From the NCBI GenBank assembly GCA_001563795.1, contig LKML01000007.1:1-43725 (forward strand): DNA of 43,725 bases. Reading direction: 5' to 3'. The DNA is from Haloferacaceae archaeon B1-Br10_E2g22. Its GTDB lineage: Archaea > Halobacteriota > Halobacteria > Halobacteriales > Haloferacaceae. The position numbers were made by a program, and so were the translations under genes. The notes below the pieces were generated by a model. It made no database searches. It was not told where the DNA came from and saw only the letters and a list, made by a program, of their open reading frames with translations. Of this stretch, positions 1,654 to 37,897 are shown one piece after another. Numbering within the stretch: position 1 is the first letter of the stretch; the number at the start of each line of letters is the position of its first letter.

Positions 1654-3978
1654 ATGAACCGTCGATCTACCTGCACATTTGCTGGAGATGACCGGGCAGT
1701 CTCTGTGGTTGTCGGCTCCATGCTTATGTTTGGACTCTTGATTCTCACATTGGCAGTGTATCAGGCCTCTATTGTGCCCGACCAACACGCCCAAGCCGAG
1801 TTAGAACACTTCGAGGCCACCCAAACTGAACTGGTCGAACTTCGAGACACGATCACTGCAGCGGGACACACCGGCCACTCGCAGTTTTCAAGTCTTCGGC
1901 TCGGGACAACTTACGACTCGGCGTTCCTCGCGATTAACCCGCCCCCGCCAGCAGGAACGATACAGACGACCGAGAAACATAATATTACGATTGCAAATCA
2001 AACCGACCAGACGAACGTCTCGACACGGTTTGTGGAGTACCAGCCGGGATACAGTGAGCTATCGATTGACCCGACACGACTCGAGCAGTCGGTGTTGTAC
2101 GTGGATGGACGAGACCGCGGTGACAACGTCAGTGTGATCGAAGACCAGACAATCGTCACCGATGAGACGGTCAGCATCACCGCGTTACAAAACGAGTTTC
2201 GACAGACAGACACAGGCCGTGTGAGCCTGGAACTGTATCCACTCAACGCAGTAGACGAAAGCGAACTCCCGGATCGAGACGGCGAGAACTTCACAGTGAC
2301 AGTTCCAACACGGTTAGATGACGACGACTACTGGGACGAAACGTTAGCTGATTCTACAGTCTATGAGGGCGTCGACACTGAAGAACACGGAACCGACACG
2401 CACGCATTGAATCTAAGCGTTGCTAAAAATAACCTCGAGTTGAACACTGTGGGGCTCCACTCAGCGCCAGCCGAGAGCCCAGCAAAGACCACAGGCCCAG
2501 CGGTTGTTACTGACGGGACGATATCTGTTGAGAGTATTGATGACGTAGACGAAAACGAAGACGATCAAACCCAAGAATTTGTGTTCACAGCAGAAACAGC
2601 GTTAGAAGAAGGAACCAACGTCAGTATCACTGTTTCAGAGCCAAATGATGCCGGTGTCGAGTATGAAGACGCAGCTATTGACATCGCCGAAGATACCGGT
2701 GAGGCAAGTAGCACTGATGATGGAGACACACTAGCGTTTGAAGCAGGCGAAGACATAGCTGAGGGACAATCCGTTACTGTCACCGTCGATGAACTCACTG
2801 TTGGACAAGACGCTGCGGGAGCATTCGGCGACATTAGTTTCACTCGAGAAGACAACGACGACACAGATACTGGTGCGTTCGAGGTCGTGGCTGAAAATAC
2901 AATCACTGCTGACAGTATTACAAACCTCATTGAAGGCCAAGACAACCAAGAGCAAGAATTTGAATTCACACTTGATGGAGAACTTCGAGAGGGTGAGAAC
3001 GTCAGCATCGATGTCTCAGAGCAAAATGGAAACCTGGTAGACTACCAAAATGCGACTATTGATACTGCTGGTGTCGGACAAGATGGTGCCGAAATCAACG
3101 ATGATGGCGATACAATACATTTCACATCGGGTAAAACAGATGGGGAGGTCTCTATTGTCATTGATGAGATTGATGTGAAAGAGAACACTGTAGGACAGGT
3201 TGACGATATCCGTTTCACTCGAGAAGACAGTGATGCATCAGACATAGGGTCATTCGAAATTACAGACACAATAACAGCCAACCGTATTGACAATCTATTA
3301 GCGGATGAAGACGACCAAGAACAGACATTTGAATTCACACTCGAGACCGATTTAGACACCAGCGAAAACGTCGCCATTGATCTTTCAGAACCAAATGGTT
3401 CAGGAGTAGACTACGAAAATGCCGAAGTTGACGATGACGACGACGGAGAAATCATAAACAACGGAGAGACCCTAGAGTTTGAACCAGAAAATCCAAGCGG
3501 AAATGAAGACGTTAGCATCACTGTTATGGATATTGACGTTGCAGATGGTGTTGTAGACGACTTCGATATTACATTTACTCGAAGTGATGATGGGTCAACC
3601 ACAGAGTCATTCGAGATCAGAGAGGATGCTGAAACTGGCGAATTCACCGCGCTAAACGTGGAGTTAAAAACCAACGAACAAGGCCCGCCAGGTTCGGCAC
3701 CTCGACCAGATGAAGTTGAAATACGTTCGTTTGAAATGACCTCTGGTGACACTGTTGAATTCACTGCAACAGAAGGCTCCTCCGAGAATTCCGCCAGCGA
3801 GGAGGATTCAGGTCCTTCAGGTAGCCCAGATACGCTTGATTTGGGTGGAAGTGGTGGAAATGAATATCCAATCATCGTAACTGCCAGTATTGACAGCGGA
3901 GAATGTCTCGAGGCAGAATTTGAAGACGATGGCGAGACATCACAATCGCTCGAGGACTGGAGTAGTTGCGATAGCTGA
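1654..3978 (+). CDS. Type IV pilin-like surface protein with internal tandem beta-rich repeats (long paralogue)
   Basis: 774 aa ORF; N-terminal DDRAVSVVVGSMLMFGLLILTLAVYQ; N- and C-terminal parts align with the 220..1482 product; three ~120 aa repeats in the middle. Confidence 0.78.
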   Translation: MNRRSTCTFAGDDRAVSVVVGSMLMFGLLILTLAVYQASIVPDQHAQAELEHFEATQTELVELRDTITAAGHTGHSQFSSLRLGTTYDSAFLAINPPPPAGTIQTTEKHNITIANQTDQTNVSTRFVEYQPGYSELSIDPTRLEQSVLYVDGRDRGDNVSVIEDQTIVTDETVSITALQNEFRQTDTGRVSLELYPLNAVDESELPDRDGENFTVTVPTRLDDDDYWDETLADSTVYEGVDTEEHGTDTHALNLSVAKNNLELNTVGLHSAPAESPAKTTGPAVVTDGTISVESIDDVDENEDDQTQEFVFTAETALEEGTNVSITVSEPNDAGVEYEDAAIDIAEDTGEASSTDDGDTLAFEAGEDIAEGQSVTVTVDELTVGQDAAGAFGDISFTREDNDDTDTGAFEVVAENTITADSITNLIEGQDNQEQEFEFTLDGELREGENVSIDVSEQNGNLVDYQNATIDTAGVGQDGAEINDDGDTIHFTSGKTDGEVSIVIDEIDVKENTVGQVDDIRFTREDSDASDIGSFEITDTITANRIDNLLADEDDQEQTFEFTLETDLDTSENVAIDLSEPNGSGVDYENAEVDDDDDGEIINNGETLEFEPENPSGNEDVSITVMDIDVADGVVDDFDITFTRSDDGSTTESFEIREDAETGEFTALNVELKTNEQGPPGSAPRPDEVEIRSFEMTSGDTVEFTATEGSSENSASEEDSGPSGSPDTLDLGGSGGNEYPIIVTASIDSGECLEAEFEDDGETSQSLEDWSSCDS
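2518..3624 (+). repeat. Three tandem ~119-127 aa protein repeats (about 2518-2898, 2899-3267, 3268-3624)
   Basis: Recurring pattern T-I-[ST]-x-x-x-I-x-x-[DE]-D-[DN]-Q-x-Q-x-F-x-F-T ... NV[SA]I-x-[VL]SE-x-N ... [VE][DE]Y-[EQ][DN]A ... [IF][TRS]FTR-[ES]D ... [AS]FE[IV]. Confidence 0.85.
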
Positions 3979-4598: not shown

Positions 4599-4713
4599 AC
4601 ATCATCTCTCTGGTGGGAGATTCAAATGCCTTTCTTATTGAACAACGGCCTGCGTGGGTATCTGAAACACACGAATTCATACCGCACAACAACCCATCTG
4701 TAGCTGGGTGCTA

Positions 4714-5559
4714 TCAGGACAGCGTTGCCTCAGTGTCAATCCCGTAGGTCTGTTTAGGTGTCTCTATGTGGGCTCGAGCAATCGCCTCATCGTAGCCGTT
4801 TTCGGCGAGCCACTGTACGCGCCGTGGGACGGTTTTCGGCCCTAACACCGCACCGGGCCGGTCAGGGTCGTCAATAAAATCGGTTTCCATCAGGAAGGAC
4901 TCGCCTGTCTCGGCGGCAGTCTGTATCCAATCTGTGTTGCTCATCACACTCGGGGTTGGCCCGGCGAGCCGTCCACCGGCGTAGTGTTTGACGACTCGAT
5001 GGGCCGCCAGCCCGCGATCTTCGGCCCATTCGGCAATTTCGGTGAGATCCTCGCTGGCTTCGGTGTGCAACTGAACTGCGCAGTCGGCTTTCGCACCCAG
5101 TGTGAAGGCGTGTTTCATGACGTCGTTCGAGGCCTCCCAGACTGCCTCGCTGACCTCGTAGTGCGGCCGGCCGGATTTCAGCCCCAGGGCGCGTCCTTCC
5201 TTGAGGTACTCTGCTGCGATCTCGAGGATGCCCTGCATACAGTCACGAGCCTCGGTAGGCGAACAGTCACGTTCGTCAGTAAGTCGGCTAAGTAGTCCTG
5301 GATGTGCTCCCAAAATCGCCCAGGCTTGGCCTGGGAGCCTCTCGGTTGCGTTCTCAACGATCTCGCAGGTTGTCTCGAATACCGGTCTGAAATCCTCGGG
5401 GTCGGTGCTCTCGACACCGAGTTTCCAAGACGGCTGGTTGACAATCAGTAGATGTGTGCCACCTACCCGAACGAAATCATCGACGGCGTCCATCCCGCGG
5501 CCGTCTTCGCAGTCGAGATGCAGGTGATTGTCGAGCACCGGCGTCTCCAAGTCGTCCAT
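4714..5559 (-). CDS. TatD/COG1099-like metal-dependent hydrolase (TIM barrel)
   Basis: 281 aa; DNHLHLDCEDGRG near the N-terminus, GAHPG, LHTEA, ETDFIDDP metal-ligand-type motifs. Confidence 0.82.
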   Translation of the reverse strand: MDDLETPVLDNHLHLDCEDGRGMDAVDDFVRVGGTHLLIVNQPSWKLGVESTDPEDFRPVFETTCEIVENATERLPGQAWAILGAHPGLLSRLTDERDCSPTEARDCMQGILEIAAEYLKEGRALGLKSGRPHYEVSEAVWEASNDVMKHAFTLGAKADCAVQLHTEASEDLTEIAEWAEDRGLAAHRVVKHYAGGRLAGPTPSVMSNTDWIQTAAETGESFLMETDFIDDPDRPGAVLGPKTVPRRVQWLAENGYDEAIARAHIETPKQTYGIDTEATLS

Positions 5560-21163: not shown

Positions 21164-21300
21164 TATCTGAGCGGTACGCCCACCAGCGGTATATAATAAC
21201 GCACCGACCTCACAGCCGACGTTCTGTACGCTAAGACAGTTGGATGCCGAATAAAAGAAACTCACCGCAGTCGACGTCGCTGGTCTATCTGGTTCAACGA

Positions 21301-21519
21301 GAGAATCCCGTCCTTTAGGACGTCACCAGAACGCGAGCGTTCTGGCCACATCACGAAAATCTTTGATTTTCGAACGACACTCCCAGCACTCGTCGGTGTG
21401 TCAACCCGAGGTTCCCAAACCAACCGCCTAGTGCGGTGGGAAGCCTCGCCGTCGTCGGGCGTCGCCCGACTGCCTGAGGGATCTTCGATCCCTCTCCGTT
21501 TACGGCGAGGAGGATGTCA
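21301..21519. repeat. Hairpin cluster with IS200/IS605 right-end-like segments (putative mobile-element remnant or structured RNA)
   Basis: Six inverted repeats (21309-21322, 21326-21345, 21354-21372, 21423-21437, 21454-21470, 21476-21494) and an outer stem CCTCGCCGT(21444-21452)/ACGGCGAGG(21502-21510) followed by aggatgtcac. Confidence 0.75.
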
Positions 21520-22146
21520 CGCCTTCTCGACTGTTGGAACCGGATCAATGAGGACGACCGCTTCGCCCTTGATAAGTTGTTTGTCGTCGTCGTTGTGGAC
21601 GGTCGTCGAGAGGATGTATTTGTTGTCTTCGAGGTCGTCGACGACTTCAATGGTTGCGGTCAGCCGGTCGCCGATGAACGCGGGAGCCAGAAACGTCGTA
21701 TCTTGGGAAAGATAGATCGTCAATCCGGGAAGCCGTGCGAGCGCCGCGCTGATGAGCCCAGAAACCAGGGTGCCATGGACGATCCGGGTGCCGAATCGAC
21801 TTTCTTCGGCAAACTCGGCCTCGAGATGCAACCGGTTGGTGTCGCCCGAAATGTCAGCGAACGCACTCACGTCCTCGTCAGTCAGCGTTTTGGAAAACGT
21901 GATCCGATCCCCAACGGACAGTTCAGTGGGGTCGGCAGCCTCCGATTCGAGTTCCCACTCGGGGCGTGCGTAGGCGACAGACGGCCCGCCGCTGGTTCGG
22001 TCACTGTCGTCGAACCCCGAGGCAGCGAGTGCTGCGCGGTTGACTTCGACAGCACTTTTGACGAGATGGCCGGTTGCCCGTGCCCACGCATCTGCCATGT
22101 TGTACGGTACCGTTTCGATGCCCGTGCTAGATTCTTCACCATTCAT
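21517..22146 (-). CDS. phaJ: MaoC-like (R)-specific enoyl-CoA hydratase
   Basis: 209 aa; FADISGDTNRLHLEAEFAEESRFGTRIVHGTLVSGLISAALA hot-dog hydratase motif; next to the PHA genes. Confidence 0.8.
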   Translation of the reverse strand: MNGEESSTGIETVPYNMADAWARATGHLVKSAVEVNRAALAASGFDDSDRTSGGPSVAYARPEWELESEAADPTELSVGDRITFSKTLTDEDVSAFADISGDTNRLHLEAEFAEESRFGTRIVHGTLVSGLISAALARLPGLTIYLSQDTTFLAPAFIGDRLTATIEVVDDLEDNKYILSTTVHNDDDKQLIKGEAVVLIDPVPTVEKA

Positions 22147-37561: not shown

Positions 37562-37727
37562 TGGTGGGCCTACGTCGTCGACTGAATTAACGCCATTGGA
37601 ACGGACTCGCCAGCAGTGGCGGTTTCAGATGTGCCTCGAGAAGGCCGTCCACCACGCCGTCTCAGGGGATCCACTGTCACGGACTCGACGAAAGCGCGTT
37701 TTTACAGGTATTTCAAGGCGGATGCCA

Positions 37728-37847
37728 CGGGGTCGTCCGGAAATCTTTGATTTCCGTGATGTGGCCAGAAATCAGAGATTTCTGGCTGCCTGCCAGACTG
37801 CGTCTGGCAATGACGAGACGCAAAGCGTCTCGAACCACTTGACCCCG
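37728..37847. repeat. Four-hairpin element bounded by CGGGGTC/GACCCCG
   Basis: Triloop hairpins at 37738-37756, 37765-37785, 37791-37809 and 37814-37832 inside a 7-bp outer stem (37728-37734 with 37841-37847). Confidence 0.8.
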
Positions 37848-37897
37848 AGGTTGTTGACGTCATCTACAAGCCACTCTCCCCACACACCCCTTATGTG

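Follow-up and report, generated by a model that had tools for sequence, protein, structure and literature searches.

Background

Among the repeats described so far, the SMR-A elements of Haloquadratum walsbyi (HqIRS42, HqIRS43, and HqIRS55) are nearest to those analysed here. They are about 110 bp long, have inverted ends, and do not duplicate their target (PMC3119063). A related transposon is not known for SMR-A, and its mobilisation has been called 'enigmatic' (Dyall-Smith et al., PMC3119063). SMR-A shows a strong preference for the near-terminal palindromes of IS605-type elements and of PATEs, the palindrome-associated transposable elements, which are derived from IS605 and are devoid of inverted terminal repeats (PMC3119063).

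The nearest architecture is that of the bacterial REPIN/REP dimers. The RAYT-associated REPINs and BIMEs (PMC3116915) are, like the haloarchaeal element described below, short and gene-less and consist of two inverted hairpins with conserved unpaired feet, and compensatory changes have been reported for their stems as well (PMC3116915). However, the haloarchaeal foot is TSGTN (TGGTT or TCGTN) and not GTAG, and positive genomes contain 1-19 exact copies and not hundreds. In addition, the Y1 proteins of Archaea belong to the IS200 subclass only (PMC6006769), and thus no RAYT partner is known for the haloarchaeal element. The CGTC-tagged REP dimers (PMC3733652) are also head-to-head dimers with stems of 8-9 bp and no known transposase, and some of them are inserted within palindromes (PMC3733652). 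In contrast to the haloarchaeal copies, they were reported from Bacteria only and have loops of 4-5 nt instead of 3 nt. The haloarchaeal tail is TSATSA and not CCA, and the tag TCGTN is only partly similar to theirs.

Results

Two copies in different host elements

The window analysed is a stretch of 43,725 nucleotides from the Haloferacaceae archaeon B1-Br10_E2g22 (contig LKML01000007.1). A sequence-only reading had reported a hairpin core shared by two places in opposite orientation, and both stretches were found where it had placed them, with the letters it had quoted. The linker TTCTGGCCACATCACG is indeed identical in both; these 16 bases occur at seven exact places in the host assembly and at one further place with one mismatch. 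The stems of both copies are fully paired despite their differences (A:T to G:C in the second hairpin, ACG/CGT versus AATC/GATT in the first), and the loops of the second hairpin are ttt and aaa, respectively. The opposite orientation reflects no more than two separate insertions. What had escaped this reading is that copy B has four hairpins, and that copy A has been truncated to a remnant of two hairpins, which lies within a PATE-like element. BLAST searches with the two neighbourhoods against the host assembly revealed two kinds of repeat. The features are, in window coordinates:

21285..21520, plus strand: element A, about 236 bp, PATE-like with IS200/IS605 (TnpB-type) ends, CTATCTGGTTCAACGAGAGAATCCCG... 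and ...CCTCGCCG[hairpins]CGGCGAGGAGGATGTCAC
21310..21321, plus strand: near-terminal palindrome of element A, GTCCTTTAGGAC, with the truncated array fused to it (read directly)
21326..21345, plus strand: remnant CCAGAACGCGAGCGTTCTGG of an inner (H3-type) hairpin of the truncated array (direct reading, fold)
21354..21372, plus strand: H4 hairpin of copy A, CGAAAATC-TTT-GATTTTCG (direct reading, fold)
21373..21377, plus strand: conserved foot NACGA, the end of the element; the next base is C (junction consensus of 186 copies)
21443..21520, plus strand: IS605/TnpB-type right-end structure GCCTCGCCG...CGGCGAGG-AGGATGTCAC (also present at several further loci in the host assembly)
37711..37858, no strand assigned: PATE-like host element of copy B, approximate extent with inferred boundaries (outer flanks common to L072, L171, and others)
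37725..37732, no strand assigned: left arm CCACGGGG of the target palindrome, a near-terminal PATE palindrome (intact and empty as CCTCGGGGTCAAGCCCCGAGG in 84 genomes)
37733..37837, minus strand: element B, complete four-hairpin mobile element of 105 bp, TGGTT...GGACGA, inserted at G^C (repeat copies, single-stranded DNA fold)
37738..37756, minus strand: H4 hairpin of copy B, CGGAAATC-AAA-GATTTCCG (direct reading, fold)
37764..37786, minus strand: H3 hairpin of copy B, GCCAGAAATC-TCT-GATTTCTGGC (direct reading, fold)
37791..37809, minus strand: H2 hairpin of copy B, TGCCAGAC-GCA-GTCTGGCA (direct reading, fold)
37814..37832, minus strand: H1 hairpin of copy B, CGAGACGC-TTT-GCGTCTCG (direct reading, fold)
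37838..37850, no strand assigned: loop remainder and right arm CTTGACCCCGAGG of the target palindrome (intact and empty in 84 genomes)

Element A has IS605-type near-terminal palindromes as found in PATEs and does not contain a transposase gene, for which its 236 bp are too short. Its ends, CTATCT..CAACGAGAGAATCCCG and CGGCGAGGAGGATGTCAC, correspond to the ends of IS200/IS605-type elements from haloarchaea, and both are common to many other repeats of the host assembly, which contains copies of element A at C5:64-299 (90%) and on C110 (82%). A gene for a MaoC-type dehydratase (21517-22146, minus strand) shares its 3' end with the right end of element A, whose insertion may thus have changed the stop codon of this gene. 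Four long copies of element B are present in the host assembly (90-100%), and one in Halonotius pteroides (84%). As single-stranded DNA, the complete 105-nt copy B folds into four hairpins on either strand (z about -8.5 against dinucleotide shuffles), and its array lies inside the palindrome CCACGGGG...CCCCGAGG. PATE-type ends are present on element A as well as on the element that houses copy B. The hairpin array itself is a separate insert within PATEs, which have no inverted terminal repeats.

A class-wide family

A degenerate pattern covering the two outer hairpins and their linker has exact matches in 164 of 294 haloarchaeal genomes, which represent 60 of 78 genera, and a reversed control pattern has none. 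Together with the fold of copy B (z = -8.5) this excludes chance. At least 445 exact two-hairpin copies were counted in these 164 genomes. The dispersed family that had been suspected from two copies is therefore class-wide, and its empty sites and junctions indicate that it is mobile. A few haloarchaeal megaplasmids carry copies; no match was found in phages, and in viral contigs the core pattern did not match at all and the linker pattern matched a single contig.

The consensus of the element is TSGTN-[CG-hairpin-CG]-TSATSA-[CG-hairpin-CG]-NACGA, where conservation is partly imposed by the search patterns, in which the linkers, the outer two to four base pairs, and the base that follows the right end were fixed. 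Most sampled copies belong to a short form of 54-66 bp with two hairpins around the centre TCATCA. The long form of 104-117 bp has two extra inner hairpins between the outer pair; the pattern for it matched in 22 genomes, including Halorubrum and its relatives, and it is this form (105 bp in copy B) that compares with the about 110 bp of SMR-A. The reverse complement of TCATCA is TGATGA, so that the element consists of two like half-units (TSGTN-hairpin-TSATSA) placed head to head. Its ends, T-S-GTN-CG and CG-NAC-S-A, followed by the hairpins, are prominent inverted terminal repeats, as also reported for SMR-A. A seemingly solitary half-unit without a partner, perhaps the remnant of a single hairpin, was seen at L106:7659.

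Insertion sites

Junctions were analysed in 186 copies extracted with their flanks. The element lies between G and C at 178 of these junctions, where the C was imposed by most of the searches and the G was not, and target duplications are absent as in SMR-A. Joining the flanks of the PATE copies predicts the empty site CCTCGGGGTCAAG^CCCCGAGG, and exactly this intact palindrome is present in 84 of the 294 genomes. A second empty/filled pair is provided by the tnpB-derived site ACGGCGGTGTGG^CCC, which is empty in the host assembly (L006) and filled in L135. The junction is followed by CNNCG at 156 of the 186 sites compared with 14% of nearby G^C positions, and at 43 of 56 non-redundant sites, resulting in the target consensus G^CNNCG.

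With first-guess boundaries, complementarity of the flanks gave no clear signal outside PATEs. Once T...A with G^C had been adopted as the corrected boundaries, part of the sites showed hairpin targeting: the junction is found at the tip of a hairpin with a stem of at least 7 bp at 20% of the non-redundant sites, but only at 3.3% of random GC sites and in 3.5% of mixed flanks (e.g. GCGGCG^C-TTC-GCGCCGC and GAGGGAC^C-TTC-GGTCCCTC). About 80% of the non-redundant sites have no long hairpin at the insertion point, and hairpin targeting is therefore a preference at most. As in the window, the element favours near-terminal palindromes that belong to IS200/IS605-type elements (PATEs), which resembles SMR-A. 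The class CCTCGGGGTCAAG^CCCCGAGG accounts for 60-71 of the 186 copies according to two classifiers, and other sites are used too.

The same core with the same boundaries is also found in quite different contexts, and the same PATE end commonly occurs without the array. In Halorubrum (L088, L089, L102-L163) the array lies inside another conserved repeat (GCAAGCACCGCA...GAGGAGCG^CAGCGAG...CTCGCGGCTGGGGCTTTGGAGGTGTTC), which looks like another mobile element. At L303, L185, L307, L190, and L193, which represent several genera, insertions hit perfect simple hairpins at the tip, which reads TTC or TTG. It seems that the element lands recurrently on the hairpin tips of other repeats. At L025 (G000:C107:23649-23700, minus strand) we observed an IS605-type remnant of about 52 bp that consists only of both ends directly fused (GTGACATCCTCCTCGCGGTAAACGGCGGGATTCTCGCTTTGAGGAAAGATAG), and resembles the core-deleted PATEs of 52 bp reported in Haloquadratum.

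Covariation and loops

In 38 distinct 54-bp copies, 98.7% of the cells are paired, changes on both sides affect 77 cells compared with 26.7+/-5.0 in shuffled data, and the covariation score is 0.350 compared with 0.136. The long form agrees with the short form. Covariation, from which the sequence-only reading had argued that pairing is selected, is therefore real. The inference of selection, however, goes too far, because there is no excess of G.U, because the signal is strand-symmetric, and because homologous insertions can differ wholesale in their stems. Mismatches over all distinct hairpins comprise 23 G.T, 17 A.C, and 13 others in 1,927 cells. A C-G pair closes every one of the 199 triloops (61% of background hairpins in the same loci), and 115 of them are GNA or TNC loops (31% in the background). 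C-GNA-G loops form unusually stable mini-hairpins in DNA, for example GCGAAGC.

The count of each triloop correlates with that of its reverse complement (r=0.976) but not with that of the reversed (about -0.07) or the complemented loop (-0.08). This symmetry is present within H1 alone and within H4 alone, and is therefore not caused by the orientation of the element. It supports the earlier proposal, made from the ttt and aaa loops, that the centre of a palindrome had flipped, and is stronger evidence for flipping than the flips themselves. The latter account for 13 of 61 loop-only differences among otherwise identical copies (11.6% expected) and for 13 of 29 where all three loop bases differ, which is suggestive only.

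At the well-supported orthologous site L155/L212, whose flanks are 86-88% identical, the tops of two hairpins differ wholesale and are almost fully paired in both genomes, and the linkers are identical. Similarly, at the homologous site L159/L330/L165 one genome has the long form and the others have short forms with other stem tops. Such changes fit hairpin-templated copying or conversion between copies. Given the about equally rare G.T and A.C mismatches, the C-G closing pairs, and the loop symmetry, pairing is kept at the level of the DNA. The data argue against selection on RNA. Selection on folded DNA would look similar to hairpin-templated correction or conversion, and the two are inseparable here.

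Mobilising enzyme

Neither a mobilising gene nor an element with a gene between its two ends was found. A script left 54 of 472 half-units without a partner; the ones inspected by eye were for the most part diverged, truncated, or edge copies, and none of them enclosed a gene between its halves. Given the clean junctions and the hairpins, a Y1 (IS200-type) transposase is an obvious candidate. As an obligate helper it was rejected: with a search for generic Y1_Tnp only, copies are present in 118 of 203 genomes with and in 46 of 91 genomes without detectable Y1 (p=0.25), and one Y1-negative genome holds 11 copies. On a Haloferax larsenii plasmid (L380), a short-form copy (3001-3083) and an IS200/IS605 tnpA gene (4631-5083) are about 1.5 kb apart, which is proximity only.

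Discussion

Comparing the sequences suggests, with a probability of about 0.74, that the repeats belong to a mobile DNA element of Halobacteria which is non-autonomous, carries no gene, and would move as folded DNA. Because many copies lie inside the palindromes of PATEs or of tnpB right ends, and because the omega-RNAs of H. salinarum have a right-end hairpin (PMC12558985), the array could instead be a functional part of IS200/IS605 ends, either an omega-RNA scaffold or a TnpA-binding hairpin, and move only together with them. This is unlikely given that the core and its boundaries are retained in contexts as different as the Halorubrum repeat and simple hairpins, and that PATE ends without the array are common; the intact empty palindromes weaken it further, and an excess of G.U is missing. 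It is very unlikely that the array is a structured non-coding or cis-regulatory RNA with pairing under selection. Such an RNA would agree with the strong covariation, the conserved linkers, and the stable RNA fold, but not with G.T and A.C mismatches being equally rare and loops being as frequent as their reverse complements. Moreover, an Rfam search of the window at gathering score yielded no match, and the copies are inserted in transposon palindromes and not in a fixed gene context.

It is known that perfect stems can arise and be mended by template switching (PMC8794818), and template-switch correction or conversion between copies can produce the same covariation without selection. Accordingly, the repeats could be the same dispersed family with purely mutational covariation (template-switch correction, conversion), no current selection, and a mobility that is long extinct. 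The wholesale replacement of stems at the homologous site L155/L212, the flipped loops, and the near absence of G.U intermediates would all be explained in this way. The linkers and feet, however, are near-identical across genera, and the broad empty/filled polymorphism suggests continued activity, which makes this reading rather doubtful.

For the mobile element, the data show the family, its boundaries, the empty sites, the target consensus, the lack of a target duplication, and the strand symmetry; a jump at the level of strains was not observed. The unit consists of two head-to-head hairpins, each with an unpaired foot TSGTN, around the shared centre TCATCA, with two further hairpins between them in the long form. 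It inserts cleanly between the G and the C of G^CNNCG and prefers hairpins that are already there, at their tip or next to it, and this preference accounts for the many copies in near-terminal palindromes of PATEs and IS200/IS605-type elements. Movement may proceed via a folded single-stranded (or cruciform) form that is recognised by its shape and feet, and that is mobilised by a candidate enzyme supplied in trans. Stem tops and loops might be exchanged block by block, through hairpin-templated copying or through conversion between copies, and the stems would thereby remain perfectly paired. It is possible, and proposed here only tentatively, that Archaea possess REPIN-like mobile hairpin pairs of their own, which would spread without RAYT through an activity that, recognising DNA in its folded form, joins the pairs into G^CNNCG at the tips of hairpins. 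Their perfect and rapidly changing stems would be maintained by hairpin-templated copying of DNA, and covariation as in RNA would arise without RNA.

The element is probably of the same kind as SMR-A, to which it is likened by the published description and not by sequence. In contrast to SMR-A it is class-wide and mostly present in the two-hairpin form, and the insertion base pair, the target consensus, and the hairpin architecture are defined here. Also, the stems of the haloarchaeal copies are strongly diverged, in contrast to the similarity of more than 95% among SMR copies of the same type (PMC3119063).

Conclusions

Judged from its copies and junctions, the hairpin element is real, widespread, and mobile, and represents what is probably a class-wide extension of SMR-A with defined ends, target, and evolutionary mode. 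For an element type whose mobilisation counted as enigmatic in 2011 (PMC3119063), the unit is thereby defined, the junctions are exact, and both a consensus of the target and a census across the class are available. This makes it testable which enzyme moves the element and whether the hairpins are needed. Stems that covary perfectly in their hundreds, with loops that are strand-symmetric and without a preference for G.U, point to processes acting on DNA hairpins, and covariation alone is therefore no proof of a functional RNA.
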